Source: Candidatus Magasanikiibacteriota bacterium (GTDB taxonomy: Bacteria; Patescibacteriota; Patescibacteriia; Magasanikbacterales; GWA2-37-8). From it: 33,950 nucleotides of DNA. Of this stretch, positions 15,304 to 19,453 are shown one piece after another. The stretch spans positions 1 to 33,950 of the forward strand of contig CALRIA010000006.1 of NCBI GenBank assembly GCA_943359595.1. Reading direction: 5' to 3'. Every line of letters begins with the position of its first letter. The first letter of the stretch is position 1. The notes beneath the pieces were generated by a model. That model saw only the letters and a program-made list of their open reading frames with translations. It searched no databases and had not been told where the DNA came from. The translations under genes and the position numbers were made by a program.

Positions 15304-15822
15304 TTATTTTATAGTTGCAGTATTTATTTGTGGCGACAATTTTTTTATCATCTCATATCCACCTATCAACACACTACTATAAAATAAGTCACCGAATAAT
15401 TCGTTATGCCAGAAGGGAATGGCCAGATAATAACTTTGAAACAGCCCGGATAAATTATGAGTGTACATTGTTCCAAACGCCCAGACGGCGGTATTGGTAA
15501 GTAAGAAAAATATCACACTGCCGGATATTGCACCGAGTATAATATTACCCAGTTTAATTTTATTTTTTAGATATCGTCCCAATAAAACGGTGATAGCAAA
15601 ACCAAAATAAACCGAAGCCATAATGTATGGACTGTAAAAGCCAATAAAAATGTCGCTGACAAACATCGCAATCATCGGTATGGCCATAGCCTGTTTTTTG
15701 TTCAAATACAAACCACTAAAAAGAGCAATCGCTCCAATAGCGGTAAAGTTCGCCGGGTGCGGAACAAAACGAGTAGCAACAGCTAAAATGATTAGCAAAT
15801 AAATAAGAATATTTTTGGACAT
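15304..15822 (-). CDS. DUF6580-like integral membrane protein (possible ECF S-component-like)
   Basis: LAVATRFVPHPANFTAIGAIALFSGLYL..MIAMFVSDIFIGFYSPYIMASVYFGFAITVLLGRYL; multi-TM, last gene of the riboswitch-led operon. Confidence 0.65.
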   Translation of the reverse strand: MSKNILIYLLIILAVATRFVPHPANFTAIGAIALFSGLYLNKKQAMAIPMIAMFVSDIFIGFYSPYIMASVYFGFAITVLLGRYLKNKIKLGNIILGAISGSVIFFLLTNTAVWAFGTMYTHNLSGLFQSYYLAIPFWHNELFGDLFYSSVLIGGYEMIKKLSPQINTATIK

Positions 15823-15862
15823 ATCGTTTTAGCCAGATTAAATATTAATTTTAGTTAGTATA

Positions 15863-18649
15863 TTATATCACGTTGCGAAATAATCTAAAACCGATATAGG
15901 CTCCAACGATGAGAGCACTACCGCCAGATATTTCTAAGATTTTTTTAACGTTTCTTTTGGTCGGAGTATCTAGTGGGAGATTGTCCAATGTTTTATTTTC
16001 GTCTGTCTGTGGTTTGCCAGCACTCAACTCTTGTTGTGGTTTTTCGATGTTTTCTTTTTTTATATTTTTAAATATAGTTTTAGTCAATTTAATTTCTGGT
16101 TTTGTTTGGGTGTTTGTATTTTTTGGTGTAATAGTATTGACGGTGGCAGTAGTAGCCGCCAAAGCTGTAGTGGTAGATATAGTCGTAGTTGTGATGACTT
16201 GGGTCGTACTAGTGGATATTATAGTTGTAGTTGTTATGGTTGTAGTAGTAACAGATGTTAATGCACTCCCGCCACTAAATATTGGTGTAGGTGCAGTGGT
16301 CATTGATTTAGGTTCTAATATAATTGGCCAAGAAAGTCCTAATAATGCTGGTACTGCATGTTTGGTTCCAAACCAATCTACACCACCATCCCAAGATTGA
16401 GTGAAGTGATCATTGTCCAAAGCGGTTAAAATATACCATGGATTTTTTCCGTTGGAGTTGAACCAATTTGTTTGATTTTCACCCAAAGCATTAATTCCCA
16501 TCATTGCCCAGCCGGTAGTGAGAGCATCGGAAACGCCGTAACCCCAACCACCATCAGTAAGCTGTTGAGATTTCAGATATTGTTTGGCTTTTATGAAAAT
16601 GTTTGCGTCTATAGTAGCACCATTATTTTGAGCGTATTTCAAAGCATTTATGGCTGCACCGGTAAGATCTGCTGATTCGTATGGACCTGGATAGGCAAAA
16701 CCACCATCGGCTTGTTGGTTTGTTTTGATGGTCGTTAGAGTGGTCTGAACTACTGGAGAATTTTGATCTTCTCCAATAGCGATAGCCGCAATCAAACCAA
16801 AGACATCATCATTAATTCCAGTTTGTCCAAAATTATTATTTTGTACGCAGGAATTTAATTTAGTTTTTAATGTCATTATTTTGGAATCATTTTTTGATAC
16901 GCCACTGGCGAGTAATCCTAAGATATGACGAGGATAGGCGGCACAGTTATTGAGCTCATTATCAAGTAAATTATTGTCATAATTATATACATAATTATAA
17001 AGTGATGATGTACCATTTTTTATATCATCGGCGTAGATATTTTTGGCGGCAAAGGTTATCGCCAACCAATCCGAAGTTCCTCCATCCACAATTTTCCCAT
17101 CGCTACCTTGATTAGATTTTATGAAGGTGATTAATTTATTTACAGTGTCATTGATTTTTATATCGGAAATAATTTGGTTACTGTTTCCACCTGGCCCACC
17201 TCCAGTGCCAGGATTTGTACTGGTAGTAGATGTAGCGTTTTGCTCAGTGCTGGTTGGGTACAACGTCATTAGTGGACTAGAGGCAAACCCTATTTTTCCA
17301 CCATATATAGTTATTGTATTAGTGGAAGTAATTGGAAAATAAAATGTGCCATTATTATTTTCAACTAGTGCATCGTTTATTAACAGCGTGCTACTAGTGG
17401 CTGGGTTCCAAGTCGGACTAAAAGATTGGTCAAAGCCAAATTGTTCCAATGTGATCGTGCTGGTTGACCCCACGATTGGTGTAGATGTGTTGGCAGTGAT
17501 TTTTAATGGGAGAACGTCATATGTTAACAACAAACTTTCATTTAGAGTTAAAATGTGTTTGTTTAGAGCTGTTTGTCCGTAATTCAAATCATTAAACCAA
17601 TTCCAGTAAATACCGTTATTATTTTGATTGTTTTGGTAAGAATTTATTGAATTTAAAAACATGTCTGTGCCAAAAGTTGACCAATCAGTTGTTAGCCCAG
17701 ATTGTTTTAGAGTACACATAGCGTTTAAAGTAGAAGTTTGACTGCCGTCGATTTCTGGGCAAGCTGTTACAGGTAAATTTGAGAATGAGAAGCCTTCTTG
17801 GCTAGTCACAACATTTAAATTTATTGATGTGGTGGCCGCTGTATTTATAGGGGCTGGATCAGGAGTGGAAGTGACATCTGGCGAGGATGTTGGTGCTACG
17901 TAAGGCTCAAAAGAAAAGTTCTTGACAATCAATTCGCTAGTAGTCGCGTTAGTCGGTGTAGAGCCATTTATTTGCCAAAAATTTATATGAGCACGTTCAG
18001 AAGCATCTTGGAAGTTTACTGATCCATCGCCTTGTTCGTATCTTTTCCAGCCAGATCCAATATCGAATCCACTTTCATCAACTGTGCGAAAAGCCACCGA
18101 GTCAGGTTTCCAGTCTATAATATTTTTTGAAAAATCATTGTTTAAAGATACGCTCTGATTTAGTTGGTTGAGATCATTGTATGGTTCAGGTTGTACGGTG
18201 TAGTGTAAATTGGTACTATTAGGAATTTGCCAATAAGAATATTCAATATCCAATTCGTGCTGGTCATTTTTATATATAAAAGGAGCGGCTACTAGGTTGG
18301 CATCAATTTTATCTACGGGAGATTCAAAATCAAAAGTATATTTTCCATATCCCAGAGAATGATCCAAAGTTACCTCAGAGGAATACCAACTTCCGTCTGG
18401 ACGTTGAGAAACGAATAGATGTAGTTTGCCATTAGTATCAACATTTACATCATTCTGGTCATTTGCAACTGTACTTCCCCAACTATTTCCTCCTGGGCCC
18501 ATTGTTTCTCCTGGAGCTGTTTCTTTAACGTCCCAAGTATATTTGGAAAAATCAACTGTACGTGCGTAAACTAAATTAACACCAGATGATAAACTGATTA
18601 TTATACCAACGACTATCAATAATTTGTTTTTAAAATTTAGCTTTTTCAT
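15863..18649 (-). CDS. Large surface-anchored multidomain protein: signal peptide, GH16-like domain, DUF4430-like domain, alpha/alpha-toroid (prenyltransferase/transcobalamin-like) repeats, Thr-rich stalk, C-terminal TM
   Basis: HELDIEYSYWQI (GH16 ExDxE); INLNVVTSQEGF..GIYWNWFNDLNYGQTALNKHILTLNESLLLTYDVLPLKI (DUF4430-like); QADGGFAYPGPYESADLTGAAINALKYAQ and QQLTDGGWGYGVSDALTTGWAMMGINAL (toroid repeats); VTTTTITTTTIISTSTT stalk; terminal hydrophobic segment. Confidence 0.8.
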   Translation of the reverse strand: MKKLNFKNKLLIVVGIIISLSSGVNLVYARTVDFSKYTWDVKETAPGETMGPGGNSWGSTVANDQNDVNVDTNGKLHLFVSQRPDGSWYSSEVTLDHSLGYGKYTFDFESPVDKIDANLVAAPFIYKNDQHELDIEYSYWQIPNSTNLHYTVQPEPYNDLNQLNQSVSLNNDFSKNIIDWKPDSVAFRTVDESGFDIGSGWKRYEQGDGSVNFQDASERAHINFWQINGSTPTNATTSELIVKNFSFEPYVAPTSSPDVTSTPDPAPINTAATTSINLNVVTSQEGFSFSNLPVTACPEIDGSQTSTLNAMCTLKQSGLTTDWSTFGTDMFLNSINSYQNNQNNNGIYWNWFNDLNYGQTALNKHILTLNESLLLTYDVLPLKITANTSTPIVGSTSTITLEQFGFDQSFSPTWNPATSSTLLINDALVENNNGTFYFPITSTNTITIYGGKIGFASSPLMTLYPTSTEQNATSTTSTNPGTGGGPGGNSNQIISDIKINDTVNKLITFIKSNQGSDGKIVDGGTSDWLAITFAAKNIYADDIKNGTSSLYNYVYNYDNNLLDNELNNCAAYPRHILGLLASGVSKNDSKIMTLKTKLNSCVQNNNFGQTGINDDVFGLIAAIAIGEDQNSPVVQTTLTTIKTNQQADGGFAYPGPYESADLTGAAINALKYAQNNGATIDANIFIKAKQYLKSQQLTDGGWGYGVSDALTTGWAMMGINALGENQTNWFNSNGKNPWYILTALDNDHFTQSWDGGVDWFGTKHAVPALLGLSWPIILEPKSMTTAPTPIFSGGSALTSVTTTTITTTTIISTSTTQVITTTTISTTTALAATTATVNTITPKNTNTQTKPEIKLTKTIFKNIKKENIEKPQQELSAGKPQTDENKTLDNLPLDTPTKRNVKKILEISGGSALIVGAYIGFRLFRNVI

Positions 18650-19238
18650 ATTTCCAAGTTATTAAATCATTATTTTTTAAAGTGTATATTGATATGCCCA
18701 TCTTGGCCGATTGACCGTTGATGTAATAGATCCAGTATTCTCCGGTTTGATTATTGTTTTTTAACCAGTCAATTTCTTCTAAAAATTCTCCCATGCCACT
18801 AAACTCTTTCATAGTCGCGCTGATTTTTTGATCAGTAACTAATTTTTGCATCGCATCATAGGCAGTGGCTTTGTCCGGAAGTTGAAGTGAATATTTTTTG
18901 TCGGTTATTTCTATTGTGACATTGATTGGATTTTTTATTTCTTCATTTTTGATGTCTGGTTTTTTGATTATTTCAGTGGTCGTGGTTGTGGTATCAATTT
19001 TTGTAACGGCGGTGTTGGTATTTTTTTTATCAACTAATTTAGCAGTCGCAGTAGTCGATACCGCCGGCTGATTTTCTGAGATAGCCGTATTTGTAGCTAC
19101 ATCAGACCAAGTGATATTTTGTGGTGGTGGTTGTGTAACTATTTTTTTTGGTTGGTCTGATAAAAGTAGATAAGCACCACTGGTCAAAAATACAAAAATG
19201 AGGATAGAAAATAGTCGCGCCAGGTGTTTATTATGCAT
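18630..19238 (-). CDS. Exported DUF4430 (transcobalamin C-terminal-like) domain protein
   Basis: N-terminal hydrophobic segment; INVTIEITDKKYSLQLPDKATAYDAMQKL..SGMGEFLEEIDWLKNNNQTGEYWIYYINGQSAKMGISIYTLKNNDLITWKYEKAKF. ATG at 19238; ORF-track start 19247 is a TTG. Confidence 0.8.
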   Translation of the reverse strand: MHNKHLARLFSILIFVFLTSGAYLLLSDQPKKIVTQPPPQNITWSDVATNTAISENQPAVSTTATAKLVDKKNTNTAVTKIDTTTTTTEIIKKPDIKNEEIKNPINVTIEITDKKYSLQLPDKATAYDAMQKLVTDQKISATMKEFSGMGEFLEEIDWLKNNNQTGEYWIYYINGQSAKMGISIYTLKNNDLITWKYEKAKF

Positions 19239-19253
19239 ATTGTGCAATAAATT

Positions 19254-19282
19254 AAAAAAATCTTTCCCGATACGAAAAGATT
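19254..19282 (-). terminator. Rho-independent terminator forming the riboswitch expression platform
   Basis: Minus strand AATCTTT-TCGTATCGGG-AAAGATTTTTTT between the aptamer and the first gene; TCGGG in the loop can pair with upstream TCCCGA (plus 19303-19308). Confidence 0.65.
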
Positions 19283-19311
19283 CAAAAAGAGAATACTCCT
19301 GCTCGGGATAA

Positions 19312-19404
19312 CTGTTATTTGAAGACCGGACTTGTCCCTGAACTAGTCAAGGCGTTACCGTTGCGGCACAGTGGAGGAATAGACCTCACTTCCACAAATA
19401 ACAG
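19312..19404 (-). ncRNA. Cobalamin riboswitch (short form)
   Basis: Minus strand: P1 CTGTTATTTG..CAAATAACAG (perfect 10 bp); core GGAAGTGAGGTCTATTCCTCCACTGTGCCGCAACGGTAACG resembling the B12-box GGAA..GGTG.AA.TCC..ACTGT.CCGCAAC.GTAA; then AAGTCCGG. Confidence 0.85.
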
Positions 19405-19424
19405 ATAAATTGTTCTTAGTTGGT

Positions 19425-19453
19425 AGCCTATCAGGCAAATTAGTCTTTGTCAA
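19425..19453 (-). promoter_or_regulatory. Putative promoter of riboswitch transcript
   Basis: Minus strand TTGACA (19453-19448), 17-nt spacer, TAGGCT (19430-19425). Confidence 0.45.

Follow-up and report, generated by a model that had tools for sequence, protein, structure and literature searches.

In Bacteroides, the surface lipoprotein BtuG binds vitamin B12 and hands it to the membrane transporter BtuB, often under riboswitch control. Animal transcobalamin and intrinsic factor combine a DUF4430-type beta domain with an alpha/alpha toroid that precedes it. For Gram-positive bacteria, B12 scavenging by transcobalamin-like SLBB surface proteins was predicted by Burroughs et al. 2007 (PMC1796856). 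In the parts of that paper that treat these proteins, the DUF4430-type beta-grasp domain is stand-alone or toroid-fused in either order, the operons carry CbiO/CbiQ genes and frequently a second paralogous surface protein, and the genomes are without key enzymes of B12 synthesis. Regarding the membrane step, CbrT of Lactobacillus delbrueckii (6FNP) is a B12 S-component that requires an ECF module, and solitary CbrT gave no B12 growth without it (PMC5997447). BtuM of Thiobacillus denitrificans is a solitary B12 transporter in which a cysteine ligates cobalt (PMC6072759).

The DNA analysed here (the window, the whole stretch of 33,950 nucleotides) belongs to a Candidatus Magasanikbacteria genome. 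On its minus strand it carries, in this order, an AdoCbl riboswitch, a terminator-like hairpin and the genes P0001, P0002 and P0003. These very likely constitute an operon for acquiring corrinoid (vitamin B12) in a cell that depends on B12 and is probably auxotrophic for it; the products would bind and transport the vitamin. The features are:

19286..19420, minus strand: AdoCbl (B12) riboswitch aptamer, RF01482 (cmscan 50.0 bits, E 1.8e-6, full model 1-149)
19253..19281, minus strand: predicted Rho-independent terminator, expression platform (AUCUUU...AAAGAU stem, U-run; fold z -2.2)
18630..19238, minus strand: P0001, stand-alone protein of the DUF4430 family (resembling the transcobalamin beta domain), membrane-anchored (PF14478, N-terminal hydrophobic segment)
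15863..18649, minus strand: P0002, secreted/anchored multidomain protein (Pfam, orthologue alignment)
17450..17809, minus strand: DUF4430-like segment within P0002, aa ~281-400 (orthologue alignment; model confidence low here)
16280..17176, minus strand: alpha/alpha toroid of P0002, aa ~492-790 (PF13243; model pLDDT mostly >85-90)
15304..15822, minus strand: P0003, membrane protein of the DUF6580 family with an ECF S-component-like predicted fold, candidate for corrinoid transport (PF20221)

The initial annotation, made from the sequence alone, had described a riboswitch followed by DUF4430, toroid and DUF6580 genes, and both the models and conservation confirm this arrangement. The P0001 and P0002 genes overlap by 20 nt, and a search of close relatives for the same neighbourhood found the order riboswitch-DUF4430-toroid-DUF6580 at 18 of 23 riboswitch sites. 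Among GTDB loci with DUF6580 there are 37 riboswitch matches; each lies on the same strand as DUF6580 and has a DUF4430 or toroid frame within the next 500 nt. Because the gene order is conserved in both sets, a chance origin of the operon is excluded.

The score of the window's riboswitch is identical to the RF01482 gathering score of 50 bits, and it would therefore be borderline if taken alone; a match only just at this score counts against the corrinoid reading. The aptamer core was aligned with 19 relatives, and RF01482 scores in relatives reach 69.8 bits. The cobalamin-like riboswitch of the initial annotation is confirmed, lying upstream of the operon and kept in relatives. A search of the genome with RF00174 gave no match, RF01482 being the model that detects this site. 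The terminator-like hairpin sits between the aptamer and the first start codon; the P0001 frame is open from TTG 19247, and its orthologues begin at ATG 19238. A permissive scan found a hairpin and T-run downstream of 27 of 29 riboswitches, three of which are doubtful as they overlap the aptamer 3' motif. The hairpins contain complements of this motif, CCCGAGCAGG, with a mean paired run of 6.1 vs 4.5 in shuffles. Judged from these features, transcription would read through the terminator at low internal adenosylcobalamin and stop at high levels, as expected of an off-switch.

P0001 matches PF14478 above the curated cut-off (E 1.9e-14, 54.3 vs 23.8 bits, over 18642-18869), in line with its first assignment to DUF4430. 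Its N-terminus is a hydrophobic segment, and some orthologues have a lipoprotein-like look. In the PDB, the DUF4430 profile matched gastric intrinsic factor over its beta domain (2pmv/3kq4, E 0.0015); a match to transcobalamin-1 was weak. Matches to 'Bagel' structures were dismissed, as they came from a 15-residue match that recurred.

P0002 consists of an N-terminal domain, the DUF4430-like segment, the toroid and a hydrophobic C-terminal tail. The N-terminal domain (aa ~28-270) occurs in close relatives only and gave neither a PDB nor a Pfam match. Pfam recognised DUF4430 in 10 of 23 orthologues, with which aa ~281-400 align, but not in the window's own P0002; the claim of a second DUF4430-like segment is in this way partly confirmed. 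The PF13243 score of the toroid (26.1 bits) is at the cut-off, and the orthologue profile matches squalene-hopene cyclase in the PDB (2e-14). Foldseek matched the P0002 model to transcobalamin (4zrp, 7qbe; E ~5e-4, TM (target) ~0.49), and squalene cyclases and other toroids matched at least as well, a closeness that counts against the corrinoid reading. PF01122 (Cobalamin_bind) had no match in the window's P0002 and one among the 23 orthologues (E 0.0038). The model supports an alpha/alpha toroid fold, while its beta-grasp part is of low confidence. The lack of any transcobalamin-like fold, named in the initial annotation as a refuting outcome, was not what these comparisons gave: the DUF4430 profile matches intrinsic factor and the P0002 model transcobalamin, with squalene cyclases at least as close to the P0002 model. 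A squalene cyclase-like enzyme was considered for the toroid given the clear sequence similarity, but the likely surface location and the operon context speak against it. Like the animal carriers, the locus pairs a DUF4430-type beta domain with an alpha/alpha toroid, whereas here there are two separate membrane-attached proteins with no known receptor and putative B12 binding, and the toroid of P0002 follows the beta domain.

P0003 is a clear DUF6580 member, as had been proposed (PF20221 E 1.9e-50, 171.7 vs a cut-off of 27 bits). The best PDB match of the family profile is CbrT (6fnp), a weak match of E 0.0072 over 129 columns. Among the 50 Foldseek matches listed for the P0003 model (pLDDT 89.9), only the S-components TmRibU (0.60) and PanT (0.55) had TM >0.5, with E values that are not significant; this and the weak CbrT match also count against the corrinoid reading. 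DUF6580 resembles ECF-CbrT in its predicted S-component-like fold, its B12 context and this profile match, and differs in that CbrT requires the ECF module (PMC5997447), whereas PF02361 (EcfT) was over the cut-off in none of 57 genomes, the window's own included, with 10 of 14 controls positive. BtuM, likened by description and not by sequence, is an S-component-like B12 transporter of organisms without an ECF module; it ligates cobalt through a cysteine, whereas the near-invariant residues of DUF6580 include no cysteine and H22 as the sole histidine. No clear BtuC was found in relatives, where FecCD matches were weak and partial (frames of about 270 aa). The one exception, in G050:C10, lies on a contig of 7.5 kb that also bears cobalamin genes and is probably mis-binned; a BtuC route was therefore rejected.

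The initial annotation had made its reading depend on a B12-dependent enzyme or an ECF module in the lineage; the enzyme is present in this genome, whereas EcfT was not found. Class II (B12-dependent) ribonucleotide reductase NrdJ lies at G000:C7:11106-13349 (TIGR02504, 582 bits with neighbouring pieces in frame, above the cut-off), and some 1 kb from it, at G000:C7:14373-14867, is the gene for a cobalamin adenosyltransferase. The expected lack of B12 synthesis agrees with the absence of CbiC from all 57 genomes searched; gene absences given here rest on the named model searches. DUF6580 is present in all 24 DUF4430-positive relatives and in G003, and NrdJ in 22 of these 25 (Fisher 1.4e-7, by genus 8e-6). 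In G034 the NrdJ match barely passes and is class I-like; G019, G037 and G040 have no NrdJ match. Six NrdJ-positive relatives are without DUF6580, which implies that the lineage has another uptake route. These discordant genomes in both directions, like the inactivity of solitary CbrT, count against the corrinoid reading. Phylum-wide, NrdJ occurs in 32 of 37 genomes with DUF6580 vs 54 of 108 without (p 5e-5). The two genes lie within 6 kb of each other in 19 genomes of this sample, with DUF4430 between them on the same strand at 16 of the 19 loci, and the intervening frames include CobA/CobO adenosyltransferases (16/24). The order in distant Patescibacteria is NrdJ-CobA-DUF4430-DUF6580. Their nrdJ-linked clusters lack the toroid, so that, judged from gene content, the conserved core is DUF4430 plus DUF6580 and the toroid is a lineage addition.

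Taken with the riboswitch and the fold matches, NrdJ and the adenosyltransferase support corrinoid capture and import, as first proposed, with ligand binding as the inferred part. The membrane-held DUF4430 protein and the DUF4430/toroid protein would capture corrinoid outside the cell, probably gripping it between beta-grasp domain and toroid in the manner of transcobalamin. They would pass it to DUF6580, which could carry it into the cell, apparently with no ECF motor involved, and the adenosyltransferase would then produce adenosylcobalamin for the class II reductase, the genes for both being present.

DUF6580 is also found outside these clusters. A Chlorobiota locus (L166) reads riboswitch (107.6 bits)-beta-propeller-TonB B12 receptor-like (BtuB-like)-DUF6580-MetH-...-CobA, a propeller/BtuB-type operon that also holds DUF6580. 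The window's operon resembles BtuG/BtuB in its riboswitch control and in the proposed passage from surface binder to membrane transporter; BtuG/BtuB differ in the outer membrane location, beta-propeller binder, TonB receptor and lack of DUF4430. In Bacteroidota and other phyla, no B12 families were seen among the listed DUF6580 neighbours and no riboswitch at 16 of 17 loci, and some members of the family may therefore take a substrate other than B12.

On these sequence comparisons DUF6580 is probably an ECF-free importer. We lean, by a small measure, towards it being a previously unrecognised ECF-independent B12 importer family in Patescibacteria, to which membrane-tethered transcobalamin-like proteins deliver corrinoid directly. 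An ordinary S-component for the same substrate, sharing an ECF or other ABC module that has diverged beyond the reach of the models applied here, would fit the fact that ECF S-components are the sole detectable solved relatives and that CbrT alone is inactive (PMC5997447). It is nevertheless unlikely given the EcfT search with its positive controls, and solitary S-components are known for B12 (BtuM) and biotin (some BioY) (PMC6072759).

Uptake might instead follow a different route (e.g. host-cell contact or an unrelated transporter), with the operon serving surface capture or storage and DUF6580 another step. We regard this as rather improbable: the six NrdJ-positive relatives without DUF6580 favour it, yet no DUF4430-positive relative is without DUF6580, which in L166 comes after the BtuB-like receptor, the expected place of an inner-membrane importer. 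Three independent links to B12, namely the cobalamin riboswitches, the nrdJ/CobA clusters and the BtuB-like/MetH operon, make it highly improbable that the operon serves cobalt, a polysaccharide, an isoprenoid or some other ligand and that its likeness to B12 carriers is incidental, even though the toroid resembles squalene cyclases, Bacteroidota DUF6580 shows no B12 context among its listed neighbours and the ligands of SLBB domains are described as varied in the relevant part of PMC1796856.

If DUF6580 does import corrinoid in the way we favour, a split bacterial transcobalamin would capture the substrate for a vitamin transporter that has no motor. Surface scavenging of B12 by DUF4430/toroid proteins is already known as the 2007 prediction for Gram-positives with ECF partners (PMC1796856). 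The locus shares the domain arrangements and the second paralogous surface protein with the operons described there, and differs in having no EcfT found and DUF6580 in the place of the membrane component. The part of that paper on the SLBB proteins mentions neither riboswitch control nor nrdJ-cobA linkage nor Patescibacteria; these, with the CPR setting and the role of DUF6580 as a probable ECF-free importer, are probably new. A literature search for SCO2321/SCO2322 gave nothing relevant, and no B12 uptake system named for Patescibacteria was reported in the open-access literature searched. The operon offers a concrete, testable candidate for such a system, proposes a function for DUF6580, a family of unknown function, and would widen the range of bacteria with relatives of the human B12 carriers to include reduced-genome species that depend on their neighbours for B12. 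Class II ribonucleotide reductase was over the cut-off, marginally in a few cases, in 86 of 145 sampled Patescibacteria genomes, and DUF6580 occurred in 37 of the 145, about a quarter. At one further locus (L157) the order is NrdR-NrdJ-AdoCbl-II riboswitch-235 aa protein-toroid-DUF6580.

The operon runs on the minus strand in the order riboswitch, terminator-like hairpin, P0001 (a DUF4430 protein), P0002 (a toroid protein), whose gene overlaps that of P0001, and P0003 (a DUF6580 membrane protein). The genome carrying it comprises 0.93 Mb in 51 contigs, the window being contig C6, and the relatives used for comparison are Candidatus Magasanikbacteria. A glycosyltransferase gene adjoins the operon and SecD/SecF genes lie further out at its other side; neither is B12-related.

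19420-19286, minus strand: AdoCbl riboswitch (RF01482), 50.0 bits
17833-18568, minus strand: N-terminal domain of P0002 (amino acids ~28-270), seen only in three close relatives, without a Pfam or PDB match by sequence

The riboswitch scores exactly at the gathering threshold, so that it is conservation which has to decide. The initial annotation had proposed a corrinoid acquisition system, and the riboswitch-DUF4430-toroid neighbourhood does recur in related genomes: a covariance-model search found 23 RF01482 sites in 19 of 57 genomes, and DUF4430-toroid-DUF6580 genes lie behind 18 of them (window included). Furthermore, a covariance model made from these riboswitches matched 37 times in 80 GTDB loci that had been collected for DUF6580 only, some of which come from the same genomes as before. 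All 37 share the strand of DUF6580, and each has a DUF4430 or toroid frame no more than 500 nt downstream. Once Bacteroidota, Chlorobiota and Alphaproteobacteria are set aside, DUF4430 is on the DUF6580 strand in 54 of 63 loci. A real and conserved corrinoid acquisition operon is very probable.

The B12-dependent enzyme sought on the basis of the initial reading is present: the genome encodes a class II ribonucleotide reductase (NrdJ), with a PduO-type adenosyltransferase gene ~1 kb downstream. CbiC, which marks synthesis of the corrin ring, was not found in any of the 57 genomes searched. Among the relatives, NrdJ occurs in 22 of 25 DUF6580 genomes (Fisher 1.4e-7; by genus 8e-6; tree not fully modelled), the marginal, class I-like match of G034 being counted in this test. 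In a sample from across the phylum it was found in 32 of 37 genomes with DUF6580 vs 54 of 108 others (p 5e-5). More telling than these counts is physical linkage. The starts of NrdJ and DUF6580 are at most 6 kb apart in 19 genomes, DUF4430 lies between them on the same strand in 16 of these 19 loci, and 16 of the 24 scanned frames in between encode CobA/CobO adenosyltransferases.

Six relatives (G027, G031, G035, G038, G041 and G045) possess NrdJ, most of them also an adenosyltransferase, and lack both DUF4430 and DUF6580, which implies another B12 uptake route. In small Patescibacteria genomes, class II ribonucleotide reductase frames also occur side by side, up to four per contig (G124:C39:9546-19234; G090:C46:264-8296; G069:C12; G096:C6; G191:C73).

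We judge DUF6580 likely to be the importer. The best solved-structure match of its profile is 6fnp chain A (E 0.0072, 129 columns), the B12 S-component CbrT (PMC5997447). Its AlphaFold model is confident (pLDDT 89.9), and among the Foldseek matches listed only the S-components TmRibU and PanT exceed TM 0.5, with E-values that are not significant. In a Chlorobiota locus (L166:4558-14195, CobA/CobO nearby), a strong cobalamin riboswitch is followed by a beta-propeller lipoprotein, a TonB B12 receptor-like (BtuB-like) protein, DUF6580 and MetH; DUF6580 thus has the place in which one would look for an inner-membrane B12 importer. In Bacteroidota, however, no B12 families are among the listed neighbours of DUF6580, which speaks against a B12 role of the family in general. 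A profile search found no EcfT in 57 genomes, and BtuC-type permeases in the relatives are weak partial matches only; we lean slightly towards motorless import.

Of the transcobalamin-like parts initially proposed, DUF4430 has a profile that matches the beta domain of intrinsic factor (E 0.0015). The toroid's sequence resembles squalene-hopene cyclases, and by Foldseek its predicted fold resembles cyclases and transcobalamin alike. A recognisable DUF4430 precedes the toroid in 10 of 23 P0002 orthologues. The chances that corrinoid is sandwiched between DUF4430 and toroid seem to us even. As the toroid is missing from the nrdJ-linked clusters and from G019, the core would seem to be DUF4430 and DUF6580, with the toroid as an accessory. 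In G019 (L093, G019:C22:171000-180000) DUF4430 is directly followed by DUF6580, and no toroid, riboswitch, NrdJ or adenosyltransferase was found.

According to Burroughs et al. 2007 (PMC1796856), bacterial SLBB/toroid surface proteins occur as paralogous pairs in operons with CbiO/CbiQ partners, in genomes without key B12 synthesis enzymes, and were predicted to scavenge B12; the initial idea thus falls under a prediction already made there. In the open literature searched, we came across no description of DUF6580 as partner, the absence of an ECF module, cobalamin riboswitch control or nrdJ-cobA linkage in Patescibacteria. This literature, which leaves out most subscription papers and preprints, does not mention DUF6580, and names DUF4430 together with cobalamin in one paper on vertebrate B12 binders and another on a Lacticaseibacillus proteome.

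A permissive scan placed a candidate terminator hairpin and T-run 3' of 27 of 29 riboswitches; the hairpin is doubtful in three cases, where it overlaps the aptamer's own 3' motif. In 21 hairpins chosen by hand from this output, complements of the aptamer motif CCCGAGCAGG are commoner than in shuffled hairpins (mean run 6.1 vs 4.5; maximum of 500 shuffles 5.3). This fits transcriptional attenuation, by which the riboswitch would switch the operon off when adenosylcobalamin is plentiful.

One further RF01482 site, on a short contig (L042, G050:C10:1-7491), precedes cobalamin synthesis and BtuC-type genes; the rest of that genome is without such genes, and the contig is probably mis-binned. The other four sites are second AdoCbl riboswitches in Magasanikbacteria genomes, each upstream of a lone Tat- or lipoprotein-like protein of ~105-135 aa, in which Pfam detected DUF4430 above cut-off in two, weakly in one and not in the fourth:

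L026, G002:C1
L037, G023:C3
L041, G020:C8
L043, G024:C11
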